Of a DNA stretch of 64,000 nucleotides, positions 7,124 to 62,864 are shown piece after piece. Each line of letters opens with the position of its first letter. The first letter of the stretch is position 1. Below the pieces are notes generated by a model. It searched no databases, was not told the origin of the DNA, and worked only from the letters and a program-made list of their open reading frames with translations. The stretch comes from a virus, in IMG/VR virus record IMGVR_UViG_3300025732_000020, positions 62,001 to 126,000 of that record. One strand, 5' to 3'. The translations under genes and the position numbers were made by a program.

Positions 7124-7131
7124 GTTTAAAG
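7124..7131 (+). promoter_or_regulatory. GTTTAAAG motif, putative phage promoter
   Basis: There is a perfect GTTTAAAG 42 bases before the ATG at 7174. It starts the plus-strand structural cluster and fits the recurrent pattern in this window. Confidence 0.55.
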
Positions 7132-7173
7132 TAATATAGTTCTATAAACTATAAAATCAAGGTTTATTGCCTT

Positions 7174-7464
7174 ATGGCCTCTAACATTCGAGATTACGAG
7201 ATCTCTAAAACGTTTTCAAACGTAATACTTTCAAACATAGATGCCCAGCCAGATACCGATGGTATTCCTTTTGACCTGAGCAGTCCCGCGAAATTAGCTC
7301 AGGGGAGACTACAAGACGGTCTTGGAAATGCCTCACCGTTATTCCTTTCAAAAACGGTCGTTGAAGTTAATGCTGCTCCCACTACTATTGATTCTTTGGT
7401 TAGAAAGCAAGAAATTATGGAAGCAATTACCTACTCACAAATTCAATCACTGATTCTTGGTTAA
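7174..7464 (+). CDS. Small probable virion protein (96 aa)
   Basis: The protein begins MASNIRDYEISKTFSNV and has no recognised domain. It contains VVEVNAAPTTIDSLVRKQEIMEA, a weakly structured linker followed by a helix. It stands first in a plus-strand run of structural genes, six bases before the next gene, so a minor virion or fibre-connector role is inferred from position only. Confidence 0.6.
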   Translation: MASNIRDYEISKTFSNVILSNIDAQPDTDGIPFDLSSPAKLAQGRLQDGLGNASPLFLSKTVVEVNAAPTTIDSLVRKQEIMEAITYSQIQSLILG

Positions 7465-7470
7465 TTAATC

Positions 7471-7845
7471 ATGTCCACTTTCCCAACAAATTATTTTGAG
7501 TCAAAAGCTATTGCTAACGTCTCAGCAACTGCAGGAAGTCCCACTTCTTTACTAACGTCTTCTACTGTCCCACAAGGTGGATATATTATGATACTTAGTA
7601 TCATGATTGCAAATAAATCGGCTGGTACTAGAGACGTTAATATTCGTCTAAATAAACAGTCAGGACTTAGTGCCATGGTACTTTCCAATGTCTCTGTCCC
7701 TGCTAAAAATTCATTTGAAGTAATGGACGGCAATAAGTTCGTATTAAATTATCAAGACTCTCTTTCAGCTTGGGTCGATTCTGAAGGAGCAAATAATGTA
7801 GATATCGTAGTTTCTTACGTAATCTATACTCCAGCTACTGCTTGA
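7471..7845 (+). CDS. Small beta-sandwich virion-type protein (124 aa)
   Basis: The sequence is an alternating beta pattern: MILSIMIANKSAGTRDVNIR, then VSVPAKNSFEVMDG, then VDIVVSYVIYTP. This matches a small all-beta phage protein type that I recall from tail tips and cyanophage structural genes. It has no Shine-Dalgarno sequence at the ATG but follows the previous gene by only six bases, so translation may be coupled. The role is inferred as tail- or fibre-associated. Confidence 0.6.
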   Translation: MSTFPTNYFESKAIANVSATAGSPTSLLTSSTVPQGGYIMILSIMIANKSAGTRDVNIRLNKQSGLSAMVLSNVSVPAKNSFEVMDGNKFVLNYQDSLSAWVDSEGANNVDIVVSYVIYTPATA

Positions 7846-7863
7846 TAAAGGGAGAGTAAACAC

Positions 7864-10200
7864 ATGAGATACATTGGTTCTGGTTTTGGAGCTGGGGATG
7901 TTCAGATCGATGCTGACACCAACTCATTTATTAATATTAGGTCTTTTGGAGCTATTGGCTATGACGAGTATTTTACTGGAGTAGTTACTGATCTAAGATC
8001 TAATAGTAGCATATTAGATATTTCAGAGATACCCAACTTCTTTTCTAATTTAGATTTTTTTAAAGAAGGCAATGAAATAGAGGTATTTTTTACATCTAGT
8101 TCAACTACTCCAGGATCTAGTTTCAGTAATTTTGTATCTAATGCGCAAACAATTCTAGTCGGTTCTGGTCTTGATGCATCTAATTATGCCTCCGCACAGA
8201 CCTTAACGTACTATGTTTACGGATATGATCCATTTACCGGTAAATTTAGTCCATATAGAACTAGTACAACTACCTCTTTTAAATTACTAAACGATCCAGA
8301 TTTATTATTTGACGAAAATAATTACGTTCAACTACTTTTTTCTAGAAAAAGTTCTCAGATTATTCCATTAATTTTTAGAAAGTGGGGTAATCAACCTATT
8401 AAATTTTTAGGTGCCCCAGGAAATAGCATTTTTGGATCAGATACATTTATTACATTTAATGACAGAGGACTATCTCAAATTACTTCTTGGGATAGAGACT
8501 TATTACAGTCCATAAATACAATTCCATCTTTTCTACAAGGAATTTTATCTTATAGTAGTTCTTCTATTGCCGCCAGTACTATTTTAGAGAAAAGAACTCT
8601 TAAAATTACGAATGTTTATGTAAACTCTGGTACTATTGAACTTAAGGATATTAGTACCTCTCCGCAATCTTTTTCCACTGACCTAGTAGGTTCTTCAGTT
8701 AGATTTGTTTTCAATAGTACTAGTGCACTTAAAAAAGCTTTAAAAGAAGCAGCTACTAGCTCAATTAAAGAAATTTTTATTCCCTCAGGTACTTATCACA
8801 TCGGTAATGTATCGCTCTTTGATGATGATGATCCTTCGTACTACTCGGGGATTACAATTCGTGGAGCTGGAGACTCTACTGTCATCCGTAGAACTCCAAG
8901 TCACACTAATCCCATTAATAGTTACGGACTACTCGATATTAGAGGAAAGACAGTAACTGATGCCATCGGCATGATTACAGTTAAGGATATTGCGTTTGAT
9001 GGTAATAAGTTTAGTGTATTTACTACAGTGTCTCCACAGGGAGATTTCTATGGTATTTCTGATAAAAACAATGACTTTATTTACATAGAACGCGCTGATT
9101 CAGTAAGAGTTGAAGATTGCTCATTCTTCAATGGATTAGGATCATCCATGACTGTAGTTGAATCCAGTAGGATAAATATAACGAATAATAGAGTTTTTAA
9201 TCTTTCTAAGCCATACGAATTAAATACATCGCCCCTTAGACTAAGAGAAGTATCTAGAGCAGTTATCCAAGGTAACTTATTTGAGAACTGTACTGGTCCT
9301 TTAAGTGGAATTGGAATTGAAGGATCGGTAATCAACAATAATATTATTAATAGTTGTGGCCAAACAGGAATTTTACTTAATTCTTCAGAAAATTGGAATG
9401 CTCAAAATAACTTAGCATATAATGAAAATGGAAGCGTAATTAAGTCTGTAGATTTATATAATAACGAATATAGCCGAGTATCTATTGATGTTAAGAAGGG
9501 AATTCCGCTCACTACTACTTATTTCACTGTGACAGATAGTGGTCTTCCAGTAGCAATTTCAAAGGGTTCTATCAACGCGCCAATTTATAACCTTAATTCA
9601 AATTATCAACGAGGCGGTGCTGCTGTAGGTTATTTCCAGATACTAGAAGCTAAAGAGCAACTTGATGCGGGAATTTTTGGGGTTACTCTTCCAACTGCTA
9701 CAATAACTGAAAGTTCTGATGTAGAAACCTCAAATAGAGGAAGGAAGATTCTTGGAACTGCATCCATGAATTTTTTAAATACCACTGGTGTATCTCCTAC
9801 ATACGGATATTCCTACATAATTACTGCCTCTGTTGCTATTGGAAGGTTCCAGATTGATCGGATTAAATTTGAAACTCCCAGTACTTTAAGAGTTTCTTTC
9901 AGAAATTCCGCAGACATATTAAATATTAATTATCTAGCTTCTGGCAATAATTTGAATGATGGAATTCAAACTTCAGGAATAGGAATTCAAGGTTCTATCC
10001 TTCAAAGTTGGCCCGATGGAGTCCCTATCGATGTCGTAGCAGTAAATGCAGAGGATTCTTCAATTATTATCTCTACTCCCCAAGGCGTAAGTGATAAGTT
10101 TATCTCTTCAGAAGACAACTATAGAATTGCCGGTGGTACATTAGGAGTAGTGAAATATAACTACTTCATTGCTGATGGCAATGTATATGTATCTGAGTGA
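7864..10200 (+). CDS. Tailspike-like protein with beta-helix domain
   Basis: This 778-residue protein begins with a probable tail-attachment region (FINIRSFGAIGY is the usual start of pectate-lyase-like spikes). From about residue 290 it shows the right-handed beta-helix pattern: EIFIPSGTYHIGN, then GITIRGAGDSTVI, VKDIAFDGN, VRVEDCSFFNG, INITNNRVFN and VINNNIINSCGQTGI. Such folds occur in spikes that bind or cleave surface polysaccharide, so receptor binding or depolymerase activity is likely. No catalytic residues can be assigned by eye. The start has a good ribosome-binding site (GGGAGAG). The C-terminal 200 residues look like further beta domains. Confidence 0.75.
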   Translation: MRYIGSGFGAGDVQIDADTNSFINIRSFGAIGYDEYFTGVVTDLRSNSSILDISEIPNFFSNLDFFKEGNEIEVFFTSSSTTPGSSFSNFVSNAQTILVGSGLDASNYASAQTLTYYVYGYDPFTGKFSPYRTSTTTSFKLLNDPDLLFDENNYVQLLFSRKSSQIIPLIFRKWGNQPIKFLGAPGNSIFGSDTFITFNDRGLSQITSWDRDLLQSINTIPSFLQGILSYSSSSIAASTILEKRTLKITNVYVNSGTIELKDISTSPQSFSTDLVGSSVRFVFNSTSALKKALKEAATSSIKEIFIPSGTYHIGNVSLFDDDDPSYYSGITIRGAGDSTVIRRTPSHTNPINSYGLLDIRGKTVTDAIGMITVKDIAFDGNKFSVFTTVSPQGDFYGISDKNNDFIYIERADSVRVEDCSFFNGLGSSMTVVESSRINITNNRVFNLSKPYELNTSPLRLREVSRAVIQGNLFENCTGPLSGIGIEGSVINNNIINSCGQTGILLNSSENWNAQNNLAYNENGSVIKSVDLYNNEYSRVSIDVKKGIPLTTTYFTVTDSGLPVAISKGSINAPIYNLNSNYQRGGAAVGYFQILEAKEQLDAGIFGVTLPTATITESSDVETSNRGRKILGTASMNFLNTTGVSPTYGYSYIITASVAIGRFQIDRIKFETPSTLRVSFRNSADILNINYLASGNNLNDGIQTSGIGIQGSILQSWPDGVPIDVVAVNAEDSSIIISTPQGVSDKFISSEDNYRIAGGTLGVVKYNYFIADGNVYVSE

Positions 10201-10202: not shown

Positions 10203-10222
10203 GTTTAAAGTTAGTATAAATA
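10203..10222 (+). promoter_or_regulatory. GTTTAAAG motif plus adjacent TATAAATA
   Basis: A perfect GTTTAAAG (10203-10210) is followed by a perfect T4-late-type TATAAATA (10215-10222), ahead of the ATG at 10235. This is the only place I saw both together. If TATAAATA were used, the leader would be only about 7 bases, so GTTTAAAG is the better candidate. Confidence 0.5.
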
Positions 10223-10234: not shown

Positions 10235-13200
10235 ATGGCCTCTAATGTTTCTGTAGGAAAAACAGCCCCAGTACCATTGGGGCAGCAACCTGCTTCTAAT
10301 TCTTTGCCTGTGGTTTTTGCGGAAGATCAAAAGCCGATTCCTGTCGAAGAACAAAATAAAGTACAATCGGAAGTTGCCCTGTCATTACTTGGCATCCCCC
10401 GCTCCGAAGTAGCGTTAGGTATTTTTGCTGACGTTAATACTTATGATGTTAATCCTACAGAGTGGGCTCAGTTCCCCTTAGAGAACGTTGCTATACAGAC
10501 CACTGAAGAAGAGGAGGGTACGGTACTCGATGGAGTAGTTCATATACCTACTGAGGCCGGTGCTCAACTTATTGCGTCTGATAAAAATACCACCATCTTA
10601 ACCTCTAAGAGATTCTTCCGTTATCAGCCTGGTCGTGTGTCCGCATCCACAATGGGTGTGAAAATGAACGTCACATCAGAGATAGAAACTGATACTCAAA
10701 AGGGTGCTCCATCGATTAAAAAGTGGGGTATTTTTGATAAGTTTGACGGATACTACTTTGAAATTGTAAATAACGGCATCGGAAACAACTTCCGTTGTGT
10801 AAGACGTACTCAGGCTATCATTCCAGGGGAACCTGCTGGTTATTCTGGAGAACTAAAATGGTTTAAGAACGGAGGTTCAGTAACTTCTGCAGATGCTAAA
10901 TTTAATGGATCCACTAACTTCGGACTTGCAGGAGTTGATCCAGTAATAATTAGAGATGGTCTGGTCTATGTAGCTGCAGCTATTTATGATCCTTCTTTGG
11001 TTTATAGCCCCGCTGATGTAAGGACTATCGATGGTAGTACTTCTCCAGAAAATCAACTGAAAAAATTTCAGTCAAATTCTGCATTTGCCTTAAGACTTGC
11101 TCAATATAATGGTTCAACGTATACTGAGATCTTAGCGAATAGAAAACATCAATTCCCATTCGACCAAAGTACGACATACTCACTGGATGACGCGTTTGGC
11201 GATGATAAGATGCAAAATTCATTCTTGAATTATATCAGAGCTGATGCACATTGTAATTTCTATGGATTGATTTCTAACTTAGCTAGAAAGGGAAATACTA
11301 CTAAAGTACTAAGTTCTTATGCCGAGTTAATTGACCCTGCTAATGATTGGCAACAAGTCTTTTTTGGTACTGGAACCAATGTTGAACAACAGACTCACGA
11401 TGCTATCTTAGGGGGGACAGGCGTCTGGGATCAGTCCCCTAGTACTACCAACAGTCAAGCTAAAGTTTGGAACCTTCTGGTTAATACGTTAGGTGGTAAC
11501 AATATTAGTCAGACAGATTTTACTAATGCAATAGGAGTACCTTTTACTAGGACTATTAGTAGTACTAATGGCAATGTAACTCTAAAAGAATGGTTTAATA
11601 TCTGTGTACCAAAACCATACAGATACGTGTATGAATGGAGACCTTGTAGAGCAATGTTCTCCGGTGACAAACTTGATGGAGATCTAACACCAGTAAGATG
11701 GTCCGATATTAACACATCCGCCGAGTTCTCATTGGGTGATTCTGATGGTCTTGTAAATAGACCAGGTGAGGTTATCTCTACTCCAGAAGGAATCGTAGAA
11801 TCTCAATCAGCATATAATATCGACTTCTCAAAGGTCACCATGTGGAAGACCGAGTACTCATGGTACGGTGCTGTTGGTGCTACTTTCCTTTGCTACGTGC
11901 CTACAGGAAATAATGAAGCAAGGTGGGTAAGAGTACATCATATCCGCGCATCAAACCAACACTCGGTCGCTTCGTTAGGTAACGCGTTCTTGCCAATTAC
12001 CTATCTCTGCCATGGAGGTATGAATAGCGGCTTAGATCCAAACAATAACGGAGTTGATATAGGCAACACTCTTGTTAAGTATGGTGCTTCTTACTATATT
12101 GATGGTGGTGATAAAGGTACTGTAAAACTTCTATCTAAATCTTCCGACTATAGTAGAACTGTTCCATCTGGAACAGTTACATTTACTCCTACTAGTTTCG
12201 ATGGGCCTACTAGTAGTATGATAACTACAAGAACTAGTTTGGGTGCTACTAATGATAAAACATTGGTTGGACTGATGGGCGCATATATCTCGGGGGATAC
12301 TACTACTAAGGTTAAGTGGATTGAGAAGAGTAGTACTACTGATGTGAAATTATACTTCACTGGGGTTATTCCTACTTCAGGGGCCGTTACATTGGTTGTT
12401 CCAAGATCGCAACAATCACTTCTCACCCTTAGAGCAAAAGACTTTATTAGTAACAGAGATGGAGAAAAAGTAAGAAATAGACTACAGATTTATCCTATAA
12501 AGTTAGGACTTGGGGTTTCCAAAGGTGAAGCTTCTGATCTTATTACAGTTCGTGGATTTAAAAATCCCCTCCTTATCACAACAAACTTAACAACTACTTC
12601 AACATCGTTGGCAACTACTGGTCTTACTGATACTATTAACACCAAGAGATCTATATTACCAATCGAGTTTACCTCAGGGCAAGTTAGTCAGATGGGACTA
12701 AGTTCTCTTCTTTCCTCTAATGGAAAGTACGTATTTGGATATTTCCTTGGAGGTAACGACCCAACTCTAGCTGGTAATACTACATCAGGTCAACCGATCC
12801 TTGGTAGAATCTATAGAGAAGACGGTAAATATTATTTTGCAAAATTCTTCTCTTATCCAGATCCAATATATGTCAAAGGTAATTTCATATACGAGAGGAA
12901 TCTCTCAGTTGGTGCCGCAGCAGAAGGACTATCTTTTTCCGAAAGAACTATCTCGACTACATCAGACGGATACGCAGATCAAACAAAATGGTCGAATCTA
13001 GAAACTGATGATCTAGCGACATTTGAAGAAATAACACGTCTTTCCGGTACACAAGTCGCTCAAGACTTTGCTCTTACTCCCGTCGTAGATACAGGAAATG
13101 AAATTTTCTCATATTACGTATCAAGAGGTGGATATCAATTTGATCTTCAAGATTATTTTGCATACAATAAAGAGTACCTTTCGTTCCCACTCACTGACGA

Positions 13201-13300
13201 GGTAGATGTGATTAGTGTCTTTGGTCATTTTGACATCCGAGAGTCAACTACTCCTAATGTATTCAAAGTTAATACTTCACTAACTTGGGAGGAGCAGTGA
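10235..13300 (+). CDS. Large virion structural protein with FRYQPG module
   Basis: This 1021-residue protein shares three modules with the next gene, in the same order: a LGIPRSE...GIF...Y segment (residues ~52-75), a KRFFRYQPGR segment (~125) followed by a YYFEI...RCVRR stretch, and a YSWYGAVGA...VPTGNNEARWVR segment (~545) ending in KYGASYYIDGGD. The FRYQPG and WYGA modules recur in structural proteins of T4-like cyanophages as I know them, without a defined function. No hydrolase motif is visible. It is probably part of the tail fibre, baseplate periphery or a head-fibre assembly. The next ATG lies three bases after its stop. Confidence 0.7.
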   Translation: MASNVSVGKTAPVPLGQQPASNSLPVVFAEDQKPIPVEEQNKVQSEVALSLLGIPRSEVALGIFADVNTYDVNPTEWAQFPLENVAIQTTEEEEGTVLDGVVHIPTEAGAQLIASDKNTTILTSKRFFRYQPGRVSASTMGVKMNVTSEIETDTQKGAPSIKKWGIFDKFDGYYFEIVNNGIGNNFRCVRRTQAIIPGEPAGYSGELKWFKNGGSVTSADAKFNGSTNFGLAGVDPVIIRDGLVYVAAAIYDPSLVYSPADVRTIDGSTSPENQLKKFQSNSAFALRLAQYNGSTYTEILANRKHQFPFDQSTTYSLDDAFGDDKMQNSFLNYIRADAHCNFYGLISNLARKGNTTKVLSSYAELIDPANDWQQVFFGTGTNVEQQTHDAILGGTGVWDQSPSTTNSQAKVWNLLVNTLGGNNISQTDFTNAIGVPFTRTISSTNGNVTLKEWFNICVPKPYRYVYEWRPCRAMFSGDKLDGDLTPVRWSDINTSAEFSLGDSDGLVNRPGEVISTPEGIVESQSAYNIDFSKVTMWKTEYSWYGAVGATFLCYVPTGNNEARWVRVHHIRASNQHSVASLGNAFLPITYLCHGGMNSGLDPNNNGVDIGNTLVKYGASYYIDGGDKGTVKLLSKSSDYSRTVPSGTVTFTPTSFDGPTSSMITTRTSLGATNDKTLVGLMGAYISGDTTTKVKWIEKSSTTDVKLYFTGVIPTSGAVTLVVPRSQQSLLTLRAKDFISNRDGEKVRNRLQIYPIKLGLGVSKGEASDLITVRGFKNPLLITTNLTTTSTSLATTGLTDTINTKRSILPIEFTSGQVSQMGLSSLLSSNGKYVFGYFLGGNDPTLAGNTTSGQPILGRIYREDGKYYFAKFFSYPDPIYVKGNFIYERNLSVGAAAEGLSFSERTISTTSDGYADQTKWSNLETDDLATFEEITRLSGTQVAQDFALTPVVDTGNEIFSYYVSRGGYQFDLQDYFAYNKEYLSFPLTDEVDVISVFGHFDIRESTTPNVFKVNTSLTWEEQ

Positions 13301-16300: not shown

Positions 16301-17824
16301 TACGTTGGTACTAGGTGTGATGGCAACTCTCATTTTGGAGATATTACTTTCGGAGTGATGTGGTCAAGAGGGAGTGAAGAAACCTATGCTAATCAACAAT
16401 ATCCTATTAGGATGGTTTCTAAAGACAGAGCAAGAAATCATCCCGATAGTTTTGGTATAATTAATCCAAGTATTGATGGGAGTAATATTCCAACCGGTAA
16501 TGCAGTTGATATTGAATTTGTTGATGCTACAAGTAGCACTACTGGAGTTGCTTATATTAAAGATAAAAAAATTCCCAATCCCGATGAATTTAGATATTAT
16601 GAGGGTCTTCCAGTAGATGTATTTAGTCCAGTTCTTAGAGATAATGTGCTTAAAGTATCTCAGGCTGGGTGGCTGCACGTTGGCGTCGGAGGAGTAGAAC
16701 AATCAGAAGCTGTACATGATACAGCTGGCGAGATTGATGACCAATTTCCTTCGCTCCCTGGAGTCGAAGGCGGCGAATGTCATGCTTTATACTGTAGAGT
16801 AGGGCCAATTGCACGAGACGTGAGTATCTTAACCGAGGACAACACAGGTGACTCCACTAAAGAATATAATGATAATGGAACTTTAAAACCCTATTATTAT
16901 TTAAAGAGTGACAGTCCGTGGCCTAGTGAGCTTTGGATTGATTCCGTGGGTAATCCTAAATTTGAAAATCTTACTGTAAAATCAATTACCACTAATGTAT
17001 CATCTATAGTAAAAACAATAGGAGAACCCCAAATATCTTTCCAAAGAGAGGGTACCTCGATTAGAGAGTATTTATTACCTGTGGTTAATGAAACTGGTTA
17101 TGATATAAATTCTGTGGGGGAAGGATTGATAAGTGCTGCTTACTCAGGTATAGCTTTATATGCCCCCTCACTCCTTAAAAAAGATGACATTTTACTCACC
17201 AGTACAGTTACTGGATCCGACATATTCCCAATTAGATGGTTTATCTCTATGAGAGAAGGGGCAGAGGTAGGCTCTTTAAGTGTAGGTCAAGATATTGGTA
17301 CTGGGATAGTACAATATCCATTTTCTCCTTTGGGACAAACTCTGAGTGTTGATCATTACTCAAATGAGGGCTTACATGACCGTCAAGATGGTGGGAGTAA
17401 CGACTTTGAAAAATCCGCAATTAAAACAATTAGAACTTTCTCGGAAGAAAACACATTAGATACCTCGATTAACTTTTCCGATACGTCCTATATTGATAGT
17501 TCTCTACCAAGTTCCCCACAGTCAAAGAGAAAAAAATGTCCTTCTTTCTTAAGCAAGAGTCTGCTTGTCGGAGCTTCCTCCTCTGGAGTAGGAGATTATC
17601 CTATCCGTTCACTTAAGTTTAAAGAAACAGGAGATAATCTAGGATCCTTCTATTTATCTAAAAATGTCCCCACTGAAATAGACCTTACTTCAATGTTTAA
17701 TATTTCCGCTGAATCTATTGGTCCTAGTTTTTGGAACAACAAATCATTATTTGTTATTGCTAAATCATTAGAAGATGAAATAGAAGGAAAAATTTCTATC
17801 ACACTGAACTATAAAGAACAGTAA
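13304..17824 (+). CDS. Giant virion structural protein, paralogue of the previous gene
   Basis: This 1506-residue protein repeats the modules of its upstream neighbour: LGIPRGETQQGLFGNV (~120), ARAFRYQPGR (~473) with a YFFRL...SIVRRS stretch, and FGWYGAIGARFYIYIPT (~620) ending with KYGASYYIDGAD. Large inserts separate the modules, including a Trp/Tyr-rich block (residues 145-175, 355-420). The shared order shows that the two genes arose by tandem duplication and then diverged strongly. Start: ATG four bases after the previous stop, with GGAGGAG upstream as ribosome-binding site. Likely a tail or fibre structural component. Confidence 0.7.
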   Translation: MANNYEIKVKSNSSSRNISLKGQSTAPSTFEKELQLVTYRGISLFSDEGNSLTSVKRVPDPRDFLTSSSLPVVVDPDSYAETAISTTNKFSKRDPVALPIEEVFNDVTETSSSILGIPRGETQQGLFGNVSSYGLDKKDWIVYSGYPDWDQGDYWQYKNSPSGRHQPTIDYDDAKNSAIAISSYPVPYTTPGNPVLYTLITGGSLSNIGPGWGRYLQSLIAMYIIEHMVNNFSQEEKTRFRLDYLDNNYPKTSSGKFNRLYWDQIWLDIDQGRFKTIGNLPIIPQGRIENMSGEGEQVLLDIFSLIDETKNTPYVTATSLSDNGGFNLLRARELVKDSNQSILYNSAFFGTTRYRWPSNNKGHFEIATQKDGDVWKEYWLLDYDSLHDDLKNWEFRVWETDPPADSPEKKYKLPYYRILNKESASESLIFGQSWPKTYSDPTIPQISNSISEGNLIGSKESNYAVVTLTSARAFRYQPGRISGFTYGVRVSEEGAGPGSILEFGVENYTDGYFFRLKDGTDFSIVRRSTIPLGDTDLFIEAGYQEKEAYISQLTGVVKYRDQLTDSEVLDLEQLVLEGKEVKVFETEIQQDIMNGDGLNSQGDTGYIFNPDTVTMYKIEFGWYGAIGARFYIYIPTDNGDARWVTLHTLVIENNIDKPCLEDPFFFFKYRTYVGSPSRIRLPQFIQKYGASYYIDGADEGTVSVSSAIASNRKVESSDLDDETGETIEQEIPIYKWSSVLGLKPKKYITNTSGNEFFNKKEIFPISASVISTVDTEIKFVNQYGCVDHGFTFQEGYKCELPESQRLRGKFLINRLETEKDTLIELGFSEKSPTPTISYQGPDPDFPEASLNLLDIDGIGYTTEYLGNSNWEDYYTFKGWDSYRYALQGTHIIGNKIFCAYVNPENEYLNSEKGWSNSISTAAISRVTRNSYYSTPASQRPWSKGQLLFRYPDTYSLKFSPYRKDTTLISSVGITSGEFYLLFTTKAGGRDSNGVPCSDEYVGTRCDGNSHFGDITFGVMWSRGSEETYANQQYPIRMVSKDRARNHPDSFGIINPSIDGSNIPTGNAVDIEFVDATSSTTGVAYIKDKKIPNPDEFRYYEGLPVDVFSPVLRDNVLKVSQAGWLHVGVGGVEQSEAVHDTAGEIDDQFPSLPGVEGGECHALYCRVGPIARDVSILTEDNTGDSTKEYNDNGTLKPYYYLKSDSPWPSELWIDSVGNPKFENLTVKSITTNVSSIVKTIGEPQISFQREGTSIREYLLPVVNETGYDINSVGEGLISAAYSGIALYAPSLLKKDDILLTSTVTGSDIFPIRWFISMREGAEVGSLSVGQDIGTGIVQYPFSPLGQTLSVDHYSNEGLHDRQDGGSNDFEKSAIKTIRTFSEENTLDTSINFSDTSYIDSSLPSSPQSKRKKCPSFLSKSLLVGASSSGVGDYPIRSLKFKETGDNLGSFYLSKNVPTEIDLTSMFNISAESIGPSFWNNKSLFVIAKSLEDEIEGKISITLNYKEQ

Positions 17825-21576: not shown

Positions 21577-21584
21577 GATTAAAG
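21577..21584 (+). promoter_or_regulatory. Variant GATTAAAG promoter motif
   Basis: GATTAAAG, one change from GTTTAAAG, lies 28 bases before the ATG at 21613 in the only sizeable gap of this plus-strand cluster. Confidence 0.4.
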
Positions 21585-21612: not shown

Positions 21613-23355
21613 ATGAGTGGACTAACTCGATTTAAAAATCTTTCAGAAACTGGCTTAAATCTAAAAACGTCTTTACAAAAACTCTATGCTCCAGGGATAG
21701 AGGATGATATTGAACTTTTTTCATTATCATCTTCTGTTTTATCTACAGTAATCTCTGGTCCTAAAGTACAAGATCCCACAGCTGAGTTTCCAGTAGAGAC
21801 TCAAATTTATGGACTAAGATCAGAAAAGATCGTAGAAAGAAAAGGAGTTGAAGATATTCAGTATGATAGAACACGATTTTTAACTAAATACTTTACTTTT
21901 ACTCCAGGTAATAAAGTATTTTTTAAAAACTTCTCCGTGAGTACTTCAAGTAATAAAGATTCATTTCATCCTCCGATTTTTTCAAATAATGGATCTATTC
22001 CAGATGTAGAGTTAGTCTATGGAGGAAGAGGTTTCTACTTTAAAAAAGGTTCCTCTAGCTCCTCTAGTATTTTACATGATGACAACGATTTTGAAAATGT
22101 TAATGATAATGTCGTAGTATTAAAAGACGTTATTTTAGAGGGGGTAAATAGTAAAAGAATCAGTGCAAAAGCAACATTGACATTCAAGGAAGAGACTTTT
22201 AATGATAAAACCCATGCAACAAACGAATCTTATGAAGATTTTAATACTAGGAGGTTTACTCTAACTGATGTAGTTATTACAGAGAGGGGTACTGGTTACG
22301 GAATTTTTGAAAAATTAAGAATTAAAGAAACTTCATCAAGTTACTCAGTTGATACAGAATTATCAACTTTGGTAAATACCGATACTGCGTCCATTAATAG
22401 TTTAATAATTCAGAGACAAGGCGGTGTTGCTTTTATTTTTCAAGACCCGATTATTAGGGTTAGACAGTACTACTATGAAGTAATAAATTCTGATCTGGAC
22501 GGATTTTTCTTATTCGATAGAAAGAATAATAAATATGTCTTTCTCGATAAAGATACCGAGATACTTAATATTCAAGATATTGATATAAGGCGAGAAGACT
22601 TTATTAGAGTAAATAACTTTACTCAGTTTAAATTCGCCTCATCTGGAGTATATCTAAGTACCTATGCCGAAACATCGTTCTTTGCTAATGGATCCATTAG
22701 TTCTAATATTACTAGTTTGGGCAACCAAGTAGGTAGAAATTTAGAATCTATCAGAACTACTATTCAAAACGCAAAGAAGCCGCAATTAGCTACTAACGCA
22801 GAGAATAAACTTGGGTATAGTTATAATGCTTTTGAGGGCAGAGATGTAGCAATTTGGCAAAGAGTAATAATTAGGGATCAAGATGATTTATTAGGAGCGA
22901 TTAGACAAGAAGGACTTAGTGGAGATGAAGTAAGAGACAATAGTTTAATCCCAGAGTTTGTTGTTACAAGTGGAAGTCAAAAGTTTACTATTCCTGGCCT
23001 ATACATCAAGGTAGGAGATGTATATAAAAGAGCTTATTCTACAAAAGATAAGCCTTTCTATAATACTATTTCTTCAGTGGTTGAAAATCCGACTATTAGC
23101 ACTAATACTAGTGAGAACAGAAATTCTCTTCCACTTGGGACTCTCAGTGCGGAAGCTTATGACCAATCCAGTGGATCTTGGTATGCTTATAATTCAGTAA
23201 TTTCTGAATTTGCTCAGAGAATATCAGTATCTTCACCGGCAGGAAAGAACGGAGCATTCTATTTTCACAAAAGTACTGCGATAACAGTAACAGAAAAACC
23301 CAATTCTGTCTCTGGGAAAAGGGTATATTCAGTTCCCTTATTCCAGGCAGTTTAA
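21613..23355 (+). CDS. Probable virion structural protein (580 aa)
   Basis: The protein begins MSGLTRFKNLSETGLNL and shows beta-rich, Asn/Ser-rich sequence. Residues ~88-120 (RFLTKYFTFTPGNKVFFKNF) look like a remote version of the FRYQPG module of the two giant genes upstream. A DVVITERGTGYGIF stretch resembles small GTGY turns in fibre proteins. No enzymatic motif is seen. It converges with the large minus-strand gene, and their stop codons share the palindrome TTAA. The structural role is inferred from company and composition. Confidence 0.6.
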   Translation: MSGLTRFKNLSETGLNLKTSLQKLYAPGIEDDIELFSLSSSVLSTVISGPKVQDPTAEFPVETQIYGLRSEKIVERKGVEDIQYDRTRFLTKYFTFTPGNKVFFKNFSVSTSSNKDSFHPPIFSNNGSIPDVELVYGGRGFYFKKGSSSSSSILHDDNDFENVNDNVVVLKDVILEGVNSKRISAKATLTFKEETFNDKTHATNESYEDFNTRRFTLTDVVITERGTGYGIFEKLRIKETSSSYSVDTELSTLVNTDTASINSLIIQRQGGVAFIFQDPIIRVRQYYYEVINSDLDGFFLFDRKNNKYVFLDKDTEILNIQDIDIRREDFIRVNNFTQFKFASSGVYLSTYAETSFFANGSISSNITSLGNQVGRNLESIRTTIQNAKKPQLATNAENKLGYSYNAFEGRDVAIWQRVIIRDQDDLLGAIRQEGLSGDEVRDNSLIPEFVVTSGSQKFTIPGLYIKVGDVYKRAYSTKDKPFYNTISSVVENPTISTNTSENRNSLPLGTLSAEAYDQSSGSWYAYNSVISEFAQRISVSSPAGKNGAFYFHKSTAITVTEKPNSVSGKRVYSVPLFQAV

Positions 23356-26879: not shown

Positions 26880-26887
26880 CTTTAAAC
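26880..26887 (-). promoter_or_regulatory. GTTTAAAG motif, minus strand
   Basis: A perfect GTTTAAAG, read on the minus strand, is followed by ATTATTATTATTATT, with the ATG of the 1164-residue structural gene 33 bases downstream. It touches the phoH stop codon. Confidence 0.55.
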
Positions 26888-27733: not shown

Positions 27734-27741
27734 CTTTAAAC
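27734..27741 (-). promoter_or_regulatory. GTTTAAAG motif upstream of phoH
   Basis: A perfect GTTTAAAG on the minus strand, right after the stop of the upstream gene. The start of phoH is about 100 bases downstream, with two hairpins in between, so the leader would be structured. Confidence 0.5.
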
Positions 27742-28121: not shown

Positions 28122-28129
28122 CTTTAAAC
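28122..28129 (-). promoter_or_regulatory. GTTTAAAG motif, minus strand
   Basis: A perfect GTTTAAAG on the minus strand, 29 bases before the ATG at 28092, in a divergent intergenic region. Confidence 0.55.
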
Positions 28130-28236: not shown

Positions 28237-28800
28237 ATGTATCCTCACACAATCGTAGTCCTCGGGGCTGATCGAGTTGGAAAATCTAGTATCGTTAAAA
28301 ATACTCAAGATGAGTTGATCTCCCGCGATGTATGTGTCCGTTCACTTCACTTCTCTGGACCTCAACCTCATCATCATACTCCCATCCAGCAATACCTCGA
28401 TCCTTTTCAATCTGCCATTGAGGAAAAAGCTCAAGTAGTTATCTGCGATCGTGGATTCTCAGAGGTATGTTTTTATGAGAAGTTCCGCCGTCACATCGAG
28501 ATCTCAGAAGAATGGGCTAATTCCGCCGAGTCTTTCTTCTCTGCTTACAGTCAGACGATTAAAGTTTTTCTTATTGAGCGGAACTGGGAATGGAGTCTTC
28601 CTCATCACATTATCGAAGTTAATGACCTCTATCCAAATTGTTCCGATTATTTCCTAGAGATGCAACTCAAAGTTAGGAAAAAAGAGCATGAGGAGTATTA
28701 CTCCTATATGAAGGACTATCTCTCTAACCGCTCGCTTCTTTCAGACGTTCAGATTATCTCTCCCACTTCCAAAAGTTTCTCTTTGGCTAATGTGGTTTAA
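28237..28800 (+). CDS. P-loop (deoxy)nucleotide kinase-like protein
   Basis: The 187-residue protein has a Walker A motif GADRVGKS at residues 10-17 and a VVICDRGFSEVCFYE motif at 67-81, which matches the DR(Y/G/H) segment of thymidylate and deoxynucleoside kinases. The fold and length suit a dNMP or deoxynucleoside kinase that would supply precursors for phage DNA. The usual LID region (VFLIERNWEWSL) is only partly like a bacterial Tmk, so the substrate cannot be named. It lies alone between divergent promoters, with its own sigma-70-type promoter, and its stop codon overlaps the GTTTAAAG motif of the next gene. Confidence 0.7.
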   Translation: MYPHTIVVLGADRVGKSSIVKNTQDELISRDVCVRSLHFSGPQPHHHTPIQQYLDPFQSAIEEKAQVVICDRGFSEVCFYEKFRRHIEISEEWANSAESFFSAYSQTIKVFLIERNWEWSLPHHIIEVNDLYPNCSDYFLEMQLKVRKKEHEEYYSYMKDYLSNRSLLSDVQIISPTSKSFSLANVV

Positions 28801-28802
28801 AG
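28795..28802 (+). promoter_or_regulatory. GTTTAAAG motif overlapping kinase stop codon
   Basis: A perfect GTTTAAAG contains the TAA stop of the kinase gene. The next ATG (28834) is 31 bases downstream. Confidence 0.55.
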
Positions 28803-33892: not shown

Positions 33893-34591
33893 TTATCCGT
33901 AGTACTTTGATCCCTTTTCGAGATTAGCCTTAGCACTTAGGGCTTGGAGTCTAGCATTGATGGCATGGTAGTCAAACCAACTCTCAGCAAGAGACGTGTC
34001 TTTAAAATAACACTTAGTCCCACGGCAATACACATCTATCCTTTCAAGATCAACCTTTTCCTCCCTGCACCATTCCTCAACAAGGCTCTTAAATGGGTAA
34101 GAATGGTCAATATGAAACTCCCCGGCATTAATAAATACCCCATGAATAGGGCATCTCATGGGTTTCCTTTTAAGCTGGCGATTTACACTTAGTCTAAATG
34201 TTTTAATTTGTGGCTCGATGATTTGTCTCATAGCCACCAAAACATCCATTTTATTCTGCTTGTACTCAGGAATTGGTTTGACTCTAGGGAAAAGTTCGTC
34301 TGTGACCTTGCCTTTTCCCAGCCAAATTTCCCTCTTCGACCGAGAAGTTACCATGACAACGCCTCTTACAGCTTTGCCTTGGAACTTTTTATTTCGTATT
34401 TTATACTTAACTTCCCCGCGGTCCTTAATTACTTTCCACTTAGGGATTAACTCTATTACACTATCTAAGAAGTCTTTATCGTTGTCTTTTACAAAGTAGT
34501 TGCATTCTGTTCCACTGACAACTTCTGTCCACTTTTTTTCAAAGGCTCCCTTCGTGTATTCATTACCTTTGATGGATATGACGCGTCGCAT
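33893..34591 (-). CDS. DCL (DUF3223)-like / HNH-like protein
   Basis: The N-terminal half (FEKKWTEVVSG...DKDFLDSVIELIPKW...VMVTSRSKREIWLG) resembles the DCL/DUF3223 domain, named for a plant chloroplast RNA-processing protein and found in some phages. The C-terminal half has CPIHGVFINAGEFHIDHSYP followed by DYHAINARLQALSAKAN, which looks like an HNH-type nuclease fold with zinc-binding Cys and His. The match is by memory of motif spacing only. The gene begins inside the sigma-factor gene, overlapping it by 103 bases, and is the last gene of the minus-strand late-type operon. Confidence 0.5.
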   Translation of the reverse strand: MRRVISIKGNEYTKGAFEKKWTEVVSGTECNYFVKDNDKDFLDSVIELIPKWKVIKDRGEVKYKIRNKKFQGKAVRGVVMVTSRSKREIWLGKGKVTDELFPRVKPIPEYKQNKMDVLVAMRQIIEPQIKTFRLSVNRQLKRKPMRCPIHGVFINAGEFHIDHSYPFKSLVEEWCREEKVDLERIDVYCRGTKCYFKDTSLAESWFDYHAINARLQALSAKANLEKGSKYYG

Positions 34592-35274
34592 AGGATAAAC
34601 TCAATAAGTTGTTCTGAATATTTTTTAATATCATCCGCATTTTTAAGATGGGGATTTTTACGGACAATTGTTGATACCGATCTTTTCTTAACAAGGTAAT
34701 CCATGAGAAAAGTCTCGTCAACTGGATCTAAATCAGTAATCTTATGGAGAAGGTCGCGATGGCTCATCATGAAATCCCCCATTGTCATTTCTGACTCATA
34801 CTCTGGCTCAATAATGTTACAGTATTCGGTGACAGGAGAAAAACTCATAGCAAATGCTTGGCGAACTGCTCGGATTTTTTTCACAGGGACCTGGATTTTT
34901 TCTGCAATCTGCTCATCGGAGATGTCTGGATCAGCAATTGTATATTTGCGGATCTTAAGATACAAATCGGAGTAGGAACGCGGGATTTTAACTAGTCGGG
35001 AATTATCTCGTAGGTAATTCAGCATATGAAACTGCAGACACCTATTCACCCAGGTAGAGAAGTTGGCGCCCTTACTCTGGTCCCAAGAATCGTAAATTTT
35101 TACTATATACTCAAGAGCAGCGTCCCTAAGCTCCTCATAGGGCAATCCAGTAAATGAGGAGATTTTTCTGGCAACTTGAGAAGCCTTCCACATCTGTGAT
35201 ATAATTTGCTCATCGCGTTCAGACTGCCTTTTCCGCGACTTGCGTTTTTCCTGCTTTTCGGGTTCTATACTCAT
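34489..35274 (-). CDS. Phage sigma factor (sigma-70 family, regions 2-3)
   Basis: Residues ~45-100 match sigma region 2: GLPYEELRDAALEYIVKIYD, then WDQSKGANFSTWVNRCLQFH, then LNYLRDNSRLVKIPRS. These are the core-binding and -10-melting helices. Residues ~116-140 (DISDEQIAEKIQVPVKKIRA) match region 3. No clear region 4 (-35 binding) follows, although a divergent one cannot be excluded. The 261-residue protein has a very basic N-terminus. It probably redirects host RNA polymerase to phage promoters, as T4 gp55 does. It overlaps the thioredoxin gene by ATGA, so it is translated with the terminase/baseplate operon. The recurring GTTTAAAG motif is a natural candidate for its target. Confidence 0.8.
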   Translation of the reverse strand: MSIEPEKQEKRKSRKRQSERDEQIISQMWKASQVARKISSFTGLPYEELRDAALEYIVKIYDSWDQSKGANFSTWVNRCLQFHMLNYLRDNSRLVKIPRSYSDLYLKIRKYTIADPDISDEQIAEKIQVPVKKIRAVRQAFAMSFSPVTEYCNIIEPEYESEMTMGDFMMSHRDLLHKITDLDPVDETFLMDYLVKKRSVSTIVRKNPHLKNADDIKKYSEQLIEFILCDASYPSKVMNTRREPLKKSGQKLSVEQNATTL

Positions 35275-35588
35275 GAGTTTTCAACTGCTCCGATGATAAA
35301 GTCTTTGAGTTGGGACTTTGCCAAAATTCCGTCAGTGTTAAGTCCTAGGAGGCTTGAGTCCTCTCCAAATACAGCGAAGTTTGGAGTCCCATCACAATCA
35401 ATCTGGTCGCAAAATGCCCAGTCATCAGTGGTAACGTCCCATTCCCCAAATCCAATGGCAAAATGTGGATATTCTTCGGCTAGTTCATTAGCTGTTTCTG
35501 CCCAGACTGGCTTCATTGCGTTACACGCAGCACATCCAGGTTGGTGGAAGAAAACAACTCTATGTTTAAATTGTTGTTGATCAGACAT
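35271..35588 (-). CDS. Thioredoxin-like protein (CAAC active site)
   Basis: This 105-residue protein has a thioredoxin fold pattern: VVFFHQPGCAACNAMKPVW with the active-site CAAC at residues 19-22, then WDVTTDD, and a TPNF cis-proline loop near 68. Thioredoxins reduce protein disulphides. In phages they can serve ribonucleotide reductase or act as DNA polymerase processivity factor (T7 uses a host one). Here the partner is unknown. Its own promoter (TGGTATAAT) lies in the gap after the terminase gene, and its stop overlaps the sigma-factor start by ATGA. Confidence 0.8.
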   Translation of the reverse strand: MSDQQQFKHRVVFFHQPGCAACNAMKPVWAETANELAEEYPHFAIGFGEWDVTTDDWAFCDQIDCDGTPNFAVFGEDSSLLGLNTDGILAKSQLKDFIIGAVENS

Positions 35589-35618: not shown

Positions 35619-35627
35619 ATTATACCA
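35619..35627 (-). promoter_or_regulatory. Extended -10 promoter for thioredoxin and sigma genes
   Basis: TGGTATAAT on the minus strand is a perfect extended -10. CTGCAA lies 17 bases upstream as a poor -35. The thioredoxin ATG at 35588 follows 30 bases downstream. It would allow the sigma factor to be made early by host polymerase, independently of the baseplate operon. Confidence 0.6.
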
Positions 35628-38086: not shown

Positions 38087-38094
38087 CTTTAAAC
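38087..38094 (-). promoter_or_regulatory. GTTTAAAG motif upstream of HNH and terminase
   Basis: A perfect GTTTAAAG on the minus strand, only 6 bases before the HNH start codon. It was probably the leader of the terminase gene before the HNH gene inserted. Confidence 0.5.
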
Positions 38095-45594: not shown

Positions 45595-45602
45595 ATTTAA
45601 AC
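45595..45602 (-). promoter_or_regulatory. Variant GTTTAAAT motif for the baseplate operon
   Basis: GTTTAAAT on the minus strand, one mismatch from GTTTAAAG, 19 bases before the TTG start of the first baseplate operon gene. It faces a plus-strand copy 11 bases away. Confidence 0.45.
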
Positions 45603-45613: not shown

Positions 45614-45621
45614 GGTTAAAG
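45614..45621 (+). promoter_or_regulatory. Variant GGTTAAAG motif for fibre genes
   Basis: GGTTAAAG followed by ATTATC, as after the copies at 62857 and 26887. It lies 25 bases before the ATG at 45647 and starts the plus-strand fibre cluster. It is paired back to back with the minus-strand motif. Confidence 0.45.
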
Positions 45622-45646: not shown

Positions 45647-46198
45647 ATGGCTGAAGCAACGTTCCAACAACTAACTACTCTCCTTCCAGGAGAAGAACCA
45701 TTTATCGGTGACCTTGAAGAAGGCGAAGTATGTATCAATGTTGCTGACGGTAGGATGTGGGCAGGAGACTCTATTAGTACTCCTGTTGAGTTGGGCGGGG
45801 CGGTTAAAAACCATCCTATTGGTCAACTTTTAACTTCAAATTATTTGGAGGTTGATGTATCATCCCCAGATAATTTACCCATCGCAAATACAAATCCGTT
45901 GGACATCCCCGCTGGGTATTACAGAGAGCAAAGAATACTACTCAGATTCCCAGAAGTTCCATTAGATGACTTCTCTACTTATTTTGACTATCCAGTTGAT
46001 TGGGGCAGTGAGGTTAGTTGGAAAACTTATTCCTCAGCATTTACCTGGGGAGGAGGAGATGAGATCTTAAATCCAATGGCTAATAATCCTGTTGATTTTT
46101 ACAAAGCCCAAGGAAGAATAATCTTGGTAGAACTGAGTTCTTTCGGTCCAAACTCTTATTGGATGGGAAGAGTTCTCTGGGTTAACTCTAATTCTTAA
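45647..46198 (+). CDS. Short fibre-type protein (183 aa)
   Basis: The N-terminus MAEATFQQLTTLLPGEEPF and IGDLEEGEVCINVADGRMWA match the 'GEl.iN..dg.l..gd' module at the start of many phage fibre proteins. The rest is beta-rich with aromatic residues (FDYPVDWGSEVSWKTYSSAF). The ATG at 45647 is preferred over a TTG two codons upstream. It probably forms a short fibre or connector next to the long fibre gene that follows after 15 bases. Confidence 0.65.
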   Translation: MAEATFQQLTTLLPGEEPFIGDLEEGEVCINVADGRMWAGDSISTPVELGGAVKNHPIGQLLTSNYLEVDVSSPDNLPIANTNPLDIPAGYYREQRILLRFPEVPLDDFSTYFDYPVDWGSEVSWKTYSSAFTWGGGDEILNPMANNPVDFYKAQGRIILVELSSFGPNSYWMGRVLWVNSNS

Positions 46199-53332: not shown

Positions 53333-53646
53333 TGATTACATCGATCTCCTCCTCTGGGCGTAAAGCCCGACCACCTAAATGGTGGGGAGGGTTAGTTGAA
53401 AAAATCCCTCAGATTTATTTGCCTTGGCTCAGACCAAAAGTCTGGACACCAGAACTAGCCAATAAATGGGTCAATACTATCCCATCTAAGTGCCCATTTG
53501 AAAGACAATGGTGGGTGGGGGACAGACTGGTACTTTTCATCCCAGCTCTCTGTTCCCTCAATCCCTTCTCTACTCAACTCTACTCCCTCCGCCTTGAGGC
53601 TCAGACCTATCTAGTTCACTGTGAGTCGGATAAAAAATCAGTTTAA
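53332..53646 (+). CDS. Mo-dependent-nitrogenase C-terminal-domain protein
   Basis: Residues ~40-98 match the Mo_nitro_C domain: TPELANKWVNTIPSKCPFER, then IPALCSLNPFSTQLYSLRLE and AQTYL. The CPFER and LCSLNP motifs are diagnostic in my memory. Despite its name the domain is found mostly in small cyanobacterial proteins without a role in nitrogen fixation that I know of. The N-terminus is basic and Trp-rich (GRKARPPKWWGG). The start overlaps the stop of the previous gene by one base (TAATG). Its stop overlaps a GTTTAAAG motif. This supports a cyanobacterial host. Confidence 0.75.
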   Translation: MITSISSSGRKARPPKWWGGLVEKIPQIYLPWLRPKVWTPELANKWVNTIPSKCPFERQWWVGDRLVLFIPALCSLNPFSTQLYSLRLEAQTYLVHCESDKKSV

Positions 53647-53648
53647 AG
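53641..53648 (+). promoter_or_regulatory. GTTTAAAG motif overlapping a stop codon
   Basis: A perfect GTTTAAAG contains the TAA stop of the Mo_nitro_C gene. The next gene starts 106 bases on, with a sigma-70-type box between. Confidence 0.5.
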
Positions 53649-54741: not shown

Positions 54742-54749
54742 GTTTAAAG
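54742..54749 (+). promoter_or_regulatory. GTTTAAAG motif after terminator
   Basis: A perfect GTTTAAAG right behind a terminator and 22 bases before the ATG at 54772, the arrangement expected of a promoter. Confidence 0.6.
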
Positions 54750-54771: not shown

Positions 54772-55299
54772 ATGGATAATGAGTTAAGAGTACCAGATGG
54801 CTGGGGAGTGGCAGAATATGCCGAGCCTGGTAAAGACACCGGTAAAACAAATAAAAATGTTGAGTTAGTCTCGCCTGGTCCACAGTCTGGCGAAGATGAT
54901 TACCATTCCCAATATGTCGATCCAGAAGGGAAATTCGGTGCTGCTAAAACAGAAAGAGGATCTTCTGACCATTGCTCCTATGGCGGAGAAGAGGCTAATC
55001 AACAAGAACCTGAAGGTTCCCAACCTTATGACGTAGGTCAACTCCATCTAGAAGATAAAGAGGTAGTTGTTGAGGATGGTAGACAGAGAGGTTACCACTA
55101 CTACCTCGTGACCCATCCCGACGAGGAGTACTTCTATTCCGTGATTCCCAAACTCCGTGGCAACAAGGAGACCTATAAGAGTCCTCGTAAATCAACCCGT
55201 AAAGAGGCCCTAGAAGCTGCCTATAAGGTTCTTAATGTAACTCTTCCCGCTTCTATTTCAGATCAGATGCATTACGTGTATCCCGAGTCAGAAATCTGA
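54772..55299 (+). CDS. Hypothetical protein (175 aa)
   Basis: The first 100 residues are polar, acidic and low in hydrophobic residues (DDYHSQYVDPEGKFGAAKTE), so probably disordered. The C-terminal part (GYHYYLVTHPDEEYFYSVIP followed by KSPRKSTRKEALEAAYKVLN) looks like a small folded domain with a basic helix. No family is recognised. It is followed by the nrdB promoter, which overlaps its stop codon. Confidence 0.6.
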   Translation: MDNELRVPDGWGVAEYAEPGKDTGKTNKNVELVSPGPQSGEDDYHSQYVDPEGKFGAAKTERGSSDHCSYGGEEANQQEPEGSQPYDVGQLHLEDKEVVVEDGRQRGYHYYLVTHPDEEYFYSVIPKLRGNKETYKSPRKSTRKEALEAAYKVLNVTLPASISDQMHYVYPESEI

Positions 55300-59856: not shown

Positions 59857-59881
59857 TCTCACGCCCAATCCGTGATAGAAT
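59853..59881 (+). promoter_or_regulatory. Sigma-70 promoter for the pyrophosphohydrolase gene
   Basis: TTGATC (-35, overlapping the nrdA stop) and TAGAAT (-10) are spaced by exactly 17 bases, with TG before the -10. It resembles the box at 53683 in sequence and in the CAAGT that follows. This is the best sigma-70 match in the window. Confidence 0.75.
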
Positions 59882-59912
59882 CTACAAGTAAACATTGTTC
59901 CTAATCAGTTCC

Positions 59913-60979: not shown

Positions 60980-60981
60980 TA

Positions 60982-60989
60982 GATTAAAG
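60982..60989 (+). promoter_or_regulatory. Variant GATTAAAG motif before terminator
   Basis: GATTAAAG lies 43 bases before the ATG at 61033, but a strong terminator follows at once, so this copy may not drive the gene. Confidence 0.3.
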
Positions 60990-60993
60990 TTCG

Positions 60994-61023
60994 GAGGGAG
61001 GAGGAATCTTCCCTCTTTTTTTT
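60994..61023 (+). terminator. Strong rho-independent terminator
   Basis: Nine pairs (GAGGGAGGA with TCTTCCCTC, one G-U) close a GGAA tetraloop, followed by eight Ts. It ends the nrdA-to-HNH run of genes. Confidence 0.9.
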
Positions 61024-61032
61024 ATTGTAGTA

Positions 61033-61599
61033 ATGGACTTTTACTTCTCGTTTGGCAAAAAGAGACCTTCGGAAAAATCGACGGTTATCTCCGCTGCATT
61101 TATCTGGGGTATTTTAGAAGTAATTATTGACCCTCTACTTGATTTTATTAATCGTAGAGTATTGAATAAAATAAAAGGAGAGGAATTAAAACGGGTATTT
61201 GACGAGTTGGATATTTTCTGGCTTAGAAATGGTTTGAATAAAGACTACTCTGAGTCTGAAGTAAGACTAATCATCTCTATGTTTTTAAGAGCTATAAAAG
61301 ACGACCATCTGTCCCGTAAGGAACTCTTAACTCTTGTTGACTTTGTTCAGAGAAAGTGGTCGTCCTCTGAGGCATTACAAAAAACATTTACCCAGGTCGA
61401 TGAAGTTATAGAAGCTAGAGTAGAAGCAACTGTAGACCAAGCCATAGAACTCTATGAAAAGAAATATATGGAAAAGCCACAAACCCCAGAGGAATTTGTG
61501 GTCAGTACTGCCGAGATTATCTTTCATGAGCCAGATGGTAGCACGGCTCAAGAGTTACTCGGTGGGATGATAGAAATTAAGAGTAGAATTATTTACTAA
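61033..61599 (+). CDS. Hypothetical protein with one hydrophobic segment (188 aa)
   Basis: The N-terminus is MDFYFSFGKKRPSEKSTVIS and a hydrophobic stretch (VISAAFIWGILEVIIDPLLDF) spans residues ~18-38, possibly a membrane helix, though it contains charged residues. The rest is helical and charged (KELLTLVDFVQRKW, VDEVIEARVEATVDQAIELY). No family is recognised. It converges with the methyltransferase gene with a four-base overlap. It is only 10 bases from the strong terminator before it. Confidence 0.55.
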   Translation: MDFYFSFGKKRPSEKSTVISAAFIWGILEVIIDPLLDFINRRVLNKIKGEELKRVFDELDIFWLRNGLNKDYSESEVRLIISMFLRAIKDDHLSRKELLTLVDFVQRKWSSSEALQKTFTQVDEVIEARVEATVDQAIELYEKKYMEKPQTPEEFVVSTAEIIFHEPDGSTAQELLGGMIEIKSRIIY

Positions 61600-62810: not shown

Positions 62811-62811
62811 G

Positions 62812-62820
62812 TGATATAAT
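62812..62820 (+). promoter_or_regulatory. Extended -10 promoter TGATATAAT
   Basis: A perfect extended -10 (as at 28202 and 55297) right before the minus-strand methyltransferase ATG. The transcript would start near 62827 with a hairpin (62826-62845). Confidence 0.6.
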
Positions 62821-62825
62821 AATTA

Positions 62826-62845
62826 AGTCTAGAGTTCCTTAGACT
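62826..62845 (+). other. Hairpin at the predicted 5' end of the transcript
   Basis: AGTCTA pairs with TAGACT around an eight-base loop (gagttcct), followed by AAAAA. Its position at the predicted start site suggests mRNA 5' end protection, or a regulatory leader. Confidence 0.45.
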
Positions 62846-62856
62846 AAAAATCCTCG

Positions 62857-62864
62857 GTTTAAAG
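62857..62864 (+). promoter_or_regulatory. GTTTAAAG motif with downstream ATTATG
   Basis: A perfect GTTTAAAG, 22 bases before the ATG at 62887, which has GGAGGA upstream as ribosome-binding site. Both promoter types occur in this gap. Confidence 0.6.

Follow-up and report, generated by a model that had tools for sequence, protein, structure and literature searches.

Phage-encoded sigma factors are a familiar means of redirecting the RNA polymerase of the host, and in the cascade of Bacillus phage SPO1 the phage sigmas gp28 and gp33/gp34, made from host-type promoters, direct the host enzyme to new promoters that have two boxes. Late transcription in phage T4 relies on gp55, which acts with gp33 and the clamp gp45 at TATAAATA (PMC2988020, PMC7892883). 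Here we describe a motif, GTTTAAAG, and a phage sigma factor gene, both found in a 64,000-nucleotide stretch of DNA (the window) that comprises bases 62001-126000 of a viral contig of 135,407 bases (IMG/VR record IMGVR_UViG_3300025732_000020). The motif had been picked out as a candidate promoter in an inspection of the letters without database searches (the sequence-only reading), which made no mention of the sigma gene. We estimate a probability of roughly 0.85 that RGTTTAAAGWW, the extended form of the motif, is the late promoter of the lineage of cyanophage S-TIM5 and is read by this phage sigma, itself made from a host-type promoter. No earlier description of a GTTTAAAG promoter, or of any promoter for S-TIM5, was found in the open-licence PubMed Central papers searched.

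The TerL protein of the contig is 68% identical to the terminases of cyanophages S-TIM5, S-TIM54, S-TIM61 and S-TIM66 (Aurunvirus), while the next cyanophage terminase in the comparison is only about 32% identical. The contig and S-TIM5 have 86 reciprocal best matches, and their terminase and structural genes are homologous. Terminase identity and reciprocal matches together assign the phage to the TIM5-like cyanomyoviruses, as an Aurunvirus relative, and not to the T4-like phages. Because the phage is TIM5-like, GTTTAAAG is not taken to be a drifted gp55 promoter. A T4-like late promoter was rejected on the same ground and because TATAAATA occurs in the contig at chance (12 copies, 12-14 expected); it is GTTTAAAG that is enriched instead. 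The sequence-only reading had also remarked that the two sequences differ.

Perfect copies of GTTTAAAG number 14 in the window, where dinucleotide shuffles have 4.2 +/- 2.1 and none of 100 has as many as 14, and 29 in the contig, where Markov models of order 1-4 predict about 8. The ten perfect sites given by the sequence-only reading are right in every coordinate and strand, and the four copies that it omitted, at 15928, 17617, 49183 and 49815(-), are all intragenic. The comparison it had proposed, of copies inside and outside genes, reveals no equal density: noncoding DNA, which makes up 3.7% of the window and 6.1% of the contig, contains ten of the 14 window copies (p 4e-12) and 21 of the 29 contig copies (p 7e-20), respectively. 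A start codon 20-45 bases downstream "in most cases" had also been claimed; seven of the ten sites have one at 22-42 nucleotides (nt), and the sites at 27734(-), 53641 and 38087(-) do not.

Enrichment of the motif is a property of the TIM5-like lineage. Genes were called identically in ten genomes, and the most enriched 8-mer 5-60 nt upstream of starts was determined in each. GTTTAAAG is the top word in all seven TIM5-like genomes (p 1e-12 to 1e-27), one of which has a guanine plus cytosine (GC) content of 52.7%, thereby ruling out base composition as the cause. As a positive control, the same script returns TAAATA words, which correspond to the gp55-type late promoter, and no GTTTAAAG in the T4-like cyanophages Syn9 and S-PM2. 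Counts of GTTTAAAG and of the reversed word over whole records agree, at 36/8 in S-TIM5, 38/6 in S-TIM54 and 34/7 in the TIM5-like genome G010, with no excess in the T4-like cyanophages Syn9 (3/7), P-SSM2 (7/10) and S-PM2 (7/18). Six Synechococcus/Cyanobium genomes likewise show no excess, which rules out GTTTAAAG as a host promoter element; a further host test over 300 windows was weak, the DNA there being 66% GC. Two other phages were considered as possible users of the motif. Cyanophage Cr-LKS4, which encodes a remote sigma factor, has 14 copies and 4 of the reversed word, but none of them lies 10-60 nt before a called start and promoter use there is unsupported, and Microcystis phage MaAM05 shows no excess (16 copies, 12 reversed).

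Conservation was assessed before orthologues at or below 80% protein identity. GTTTAAAG is retained at 11 of 16 such positions in S-TIM5, 10 of 13 in S-TIM54, 6 of 8 in G009, 7 of 7 in G007 and 7 of 10 in G010, compared with 2-10% for other 8-mers in the same upstream regions (2% in the S-TIM5 comparison), and most proteins behind the retained sites are 30-60% identical to their S-TIM5 orthologues. Imperfect copies at orthologues often differ by a single change, as in GATTAAAG, the commonest variant, GTTTAAAT, GGTTAAAG and GTTTAAGG, and these single-change forms explain the one-mismatch sites listed by the sequence-only reading. All five of those sites are found, 25-45 nt before starts, by a weight matrix trained only on other genomes. 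Alone, the matrix is not specific enough for genome-wide prediction: with a threshold of 8 bits, 106 sites are obtained in the contig, and the reversed sequence still yields 69. The variant GTTTAAGG is rare (14 copies in the pooled TIM5-like genomes), yet nine of the 14, among them the copy before the tail sheath gene in this contig, lie 15-50 nt before starts, a placement as strong as that of the consensus.

The genes downstream are predominantly those of the virion. With the published annotation of S-TIM5, a perfect GTTTAAAG is found 5-70 nt upstream of 17 of 47 structural or packaging genes but, among the remaining 150 genes, of only 8 (p 5e-7, odds ratio 10); the sequence-only reading had observed that the motif usually begins structural gene groups. 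Host-type elements resembling TGnTATAAT follow the opposite trend, with 1 of 47 structural genes and 16 of 150 others, a difference that is not significant alone (p 0.08).

The anatomy of the sites is that of a promoter with a single box. The consensus of 105 non-redundant sites is (A/G)GTTTAAAG(A/T)(A/T), or RGTTTAAAGWW, followed by about 15 AT-rich bases, and the logo remains AT-rich to about +23, the eight core bases being fixed by the selection of sites. No upstream position exceeds 0.25 bits, leaving the logo without a -35 box, and -35-like hexamers upstream of the motif occur at chance (36 versus 34), in agreement with the earlier statement that no conserved box lies further upstream. 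The distance from GTTTAAAG to the start codon has a median of 27 nt and a first quartile of 22, and the corresponding values for gp55-type motifs in Syn9 and S-PM2 are 27 and 23. Outside the motif, the best-conserved columns among orthologues are -1, +8, +16 and +17 from the motif start, a pattern that would fit transcription starting near +14 to +17.

The candidate reader of the motif belongs to the sigma-70 family. Its region 2 matches Pfam PF04542 at 24.1 bits (cut-off 24.0), its best match among solved structures is cyanobacterial SigA over regions 2-3 (1e-5), and alignments to SigA and SigF extend to about residue 149-174, which takes in region 3. The similarity to the group 3 factor SigF and to SigA thus covers regions 2 and 3, with a score against the SigF family of 41.7 bits, far below its cut-off of 261. 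No Pfam match to region 4 was obtained; Foldseek alignments cover most of the chain, and helices at residues 184-229 have a predicted local distance difference test (pLDDT) score of about 72-83 in a model that is weak overall. Almost all of the leading fold matches of the model in the PDB are to sigma-70 factors, alone or in complexes. The S-TIM5 orthologue, gp108, is 66% identical and is annotated as RNA polymerase sigma factor / SigF; neither that annotation nor the open-licence PubMed Central literature searched assigns it a promoter.

Residues 60-111 of the phage sigma, which by the SigA alignment span regions 2.2 to 3.0, are nearly invariant in a set of 58 homologues whose overall identity goes as low as 61%, and in FSTWVNRCLQFHMLNYLRD the sole difference is at Q81, in one sequence. 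In the same alignment, R78, C79, F82 and L85 stand in place of the tryptophan pair of SigA and the positions after it, which in sigma-70 factors read the -10 element. Such a frozen sigma segment, with its atypical DNA-reading residues, would go well with a promoter that is likewise frozen and unusual, and a phage-encoded sigma is most likely what reads GTTTAAAG. Scanning 84,980 genomes of bacteria and archaea turned up no close relative of the protein; close relatives of the gene were found in viral contigs only. Furthermore, tblastn at 1e-5 finds the gene in neither Syn9 nor S-PM2, and T4 gp55 is absent from the PDB profile matches, so that the phage sigma is not a recognisable gp55 homologue, though remote common descent of the two within the sigma-70 family is possible.

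How the sigma might be produced is suggested by the DNA in front of its operon. A TGnTATAAT element precedes the operon in 52 of 55 homologous loci with enough upstream DNA, while GTTTAAAG precedes it in 0 of the 55. The operon order is the same in S-TIM5, where a small gene occupies the place of the thioredoxin-like gene, as one does in S-TIM54. In the scheme that we propose, the host RNA polymerase with its housekeeping sigma would transcribe the sigma operon first, from the conserved TGGTATAAT promoter, and the phage sigma would then bind the host core polymerase and open the DNA at GTTTAAAG, a -10-type element acting with no -35 box. Transcription would begin some 6-10 nt after the motif and would serve chiefly virion structural gene groups, on both strands, presumably late in infection. 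Lineage specificity, retention at orthologues, the logo, the spacing and the phage sigma all support what the sequence-only reading had put forward, namely that a transcription system specific to the phage uses GTTTAAAG as a promoter with only a -10 element.

Several observations sit less comfortably with a late promoter read by the phage sigma. Eight of the 29 contig copies of GTTTAAAG are intragenic, 30 of the 47 structural genes of S-TIM5 have no perfect copy directly upstream (many of them lie inside operons), and the AlphaFold model of the sigma is of low confidence, with a mean pLDDT of 60.6 from 24 sequences (an earlier model from 7 sequences was poorer, at 54). TATAAT-like words also occur between motif and start at 67 of 109 sites compared with 48.5 in shuffles, and a second, downstream element is possible. 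This modest excess is what might be expected if GTTTAAAG were bound by an activator, as the MotA box of T4 is, and a host -10 element followed it. We consider this quite improbable, as start codons follow the motif at a median of 27 nt and often at 19-22 nt, a distance in which a -10 element, a start site and a ribosome-binding site would hardly all fit. In addition, 0.3 bits is not exceeded at any position downstream, and known -10-only late promoters have the same spacing. A somewhat better, though still unlikely, alternative is that the motif does serve as a phage promoter element but that its reader is a host sigma, for instance one of group 2 or 3, or SigA with a phage activator, the phage sigma having other promoters as targets. 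Cyanobacteria do have several sigma factors, and by profile the phage sigma is nearest to cyanobacterial SigF and SigA; but the motif is in excess neither in the six host-group genomes nor in T4-like phages of marine Synechococcus and Prochlorococcus, and apart from the host-type TGnTATAAT no second class of phage promoter was found that might be the target of the phage sigma.

The position of the motif close upstream of genes, on the coding strand, would also suit an element of the leader RNA or of translation, or a site for protein binding or packaging. At 18 or more nt upstream, however, it is outside the ribosome-binding site, and the bias to structural genes and a geometry nearly identical to that of gp55-type promoters point to initiation, making a function other than that of a promoter highly improbable. 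A hairpin in the leader RNA was ruled out, because folding is no stronger than in shuffles (mean -2.84 versus -2.75 kcal/mol). Overrepresentation of an AT-rich 8-mer through composition has in its favor that forms with one mismatch, taken together, are about as common as chance predicts (85 versus 91 expected), but it is refuted by conservation across genomes, the motif being shared with the relative of 53% GC and kept at orthologues that are mostly 30-60% identical, besides exceeding its expected count more than threefold; the probability left to chance is negligible.

Features of the window, with positions counted from its first base (G002, G007, G009 and G010 are TIM5-like genomes)
Feature	Position	Strand	Remarks
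Phage sigma factor, 261 amino acids, candidate reader of GTTTAAAG	34489..35274	-	Pfam Sigma70_r2 3e-5; PHROG sigma 6e-17
Thioredoxin-like gene, first in sigma operon	35271..35588	-	Pfam Thioredoxin 2e-7; same order in S-TIM5, S-TIM54
TGGTATAAT, putative host-type extended -10 promoter of sigma operon	35619..35627	-	TGnTATAAT class
GTTTAAAG, predicted late promoter	7124..7131	+	42 nt to ATG of structural gene 7174-7464 (S-TIM5 gp008 homologue); perfect before orthologue in 6/6 other TIM5-like genomes
GTTTAAAG, predicted late promoter	10203..10210	+	24 nt to ATG of structural gene 10235-13300 (gp120 homologue); perfect in G009, G007; GATTAAAG in S-TIM5, S-TIM54
GTTTAAAG, predicted late promoter	26880..26887	-	33 nt to ATG of structural gene 26846-23352 (gp116 homologue); perfect in 5/6 relatives
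GTTTAAAG, predicted promoter before phoH (27637-26888)	27734..27741	-	96 nt to ATG; S-TIM5 has one as well, at 103972(-), about 82 nt upstream of its phoH
GTTTAAAG, predicted late promoter	28122..28129	-	29 nt to ATG of structural gene 28092-27745 (gp114 homologue); perfect in 6/6 relatives
GTTTAAAG, predicted late promoter	28795..28802	+	31 nt to ATG of structural gene 28834-29556 (gp112 homologue); perfect in 6/6 relatives
GTTTAAAG, probable promoter before 53698/53755-54684	53641..53648	+	Wholly or partly noncoding by gene caller; distance to start 50 nt (GTG) or 106 nt (ATG)
GTTTAAAG, predicted late promoter	54742..54749	+	22 nt to ATG of structural gene 54772-55299 (gp094 homologue); perfect at every orthologue found, five genomes
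GTTTAAAG, predicted late promoter before 62887-63183	62857..62864	+	22 nt to ATG; perfect in G010, G002, G007; absent in S-TIM5, G009
GTTTAAAA, candidate variant promoter before 6015-6257	5962..5969	+	10.1 bits (matrix without this genome); 45 nt to start
GATTAAAG, candidate variant promoter before 21613-23355 (gp117 position)	21577..21584	+	12.5 bits; 28 nt to start
GTTTAAAT, candidate variant promoter before 45569-44517 (gp100 homologue)	45595..45602	-	Same variant in G010, G009, G002, G007; perfect GTTTAAAG before S-TIM5 orthologue
GGTTAAAG, candidate variant promoter before 45647-46198 (gp099 homologue)	45614..45621	+	Perfect GTTTAAAG before orthologue in S-TIM5, S-TIM54; single-change forms in four others
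GATTAAAG, candidate variant promoter before 61033-61599	60982..60989	+	13.3 bits; 43 nt to start
GTTTAAAG, doubtful site	38087..38094	-	6 nt before inserted homing endonuclease gene (38080-37238); no such gene here in S-TIM5

The site at 38087(-) is doubtful because it is too near the start codon for a -10 element, and it is probably not a promoter. The homing endonuclease gene that it precedes (37238-38080, minus strand) sits directly upstream of terL.

Two intragenic copies of the motif are themselves conserved. One is kept inside the gp119-type structural gene (17617-17624 (+) in the window, 93152-93159 in S-TIM5), about 205-215 nt before the gene end; this probably reflects coding constraint, though an internal promoter for gp118 is possible. 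The other lies outside the window, at 34900-34907 (-) within the head maturation protease gene of the contig (G000:C1:33476-35410, minus strand), 23-26 nt before an in-frame methionine (residue 179 here, 185 in S-TIM5). It is kept in S-TIM5, S-TIM54 and G010, always with the rare serine codon TCG (6.8% of serine codons). By analogy with lambda C/Nu3, this arrangement suggests that the protease gene may hold a nested scaffold protein with a late promoter of its own. As a separate observation, a contig filed as "Euryarchaeota archaeon TMED129" (NHGE01000071.1; L157 in our set) encodes a psbA product 94% identical to that of the phage, and it is probably a misbinned phage or cyanobacterial contig.

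Compared with the described systems, the proposed TIM5-like promoters resemble those of T4 and other gp55-type phages in being -10-only, with no -35 box, in the AT-rich DNA just downstream, in their occurrence on both strands before structural genes, and in being served by a phage factor of the sigma-70 family (PMC2988020, PMC7892883). The spacing to start codons is also that of the TAAATA promoters of Syn9 and S-PM2. The differences are in the 8-mer, in the phage lineage, and in the sigma, which in the TIM5-like phages keeps regions 2-3 plus a possible region 4. The proposed production of a phage sigma from a host-type promoter, and the redirection of the host polymerase by it, would be like the SPO1 scheme, except that in the TIM5-like phages only a single box is apparent and only a single sigma gene came to our attention. 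On balance, we incline to the view that a -10-only late promoter class, RGTTTAAAGWW, and a sigma to go with it may have arisen independently in a non-T4 lineage. This sigma would read DNA with a rewired region 2 that lacks the usual -10-reading residues, and any region 4 that it keeps may have ceased to read a -35 box; promoter and sigma together would be a solution separate from that of T4 gp55.

The lineage of which S-TIM5 is the cultured type is set apart from the T4-like cyanophages by its structural genes, and cultured members (S-TIM5, S-TIM54, S-TIM61 and S-TIM66) exist together with their Synechococcus hosts. A promoter with its likely reader would allow transcription units, nested genes and expression classes to be predicted in TIM5-like contigs from metagenomes. 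Furthermore, a frozen, altered sigma segment paired with its likely target would be a clear case in which to study how the specificity of region 2 changes.

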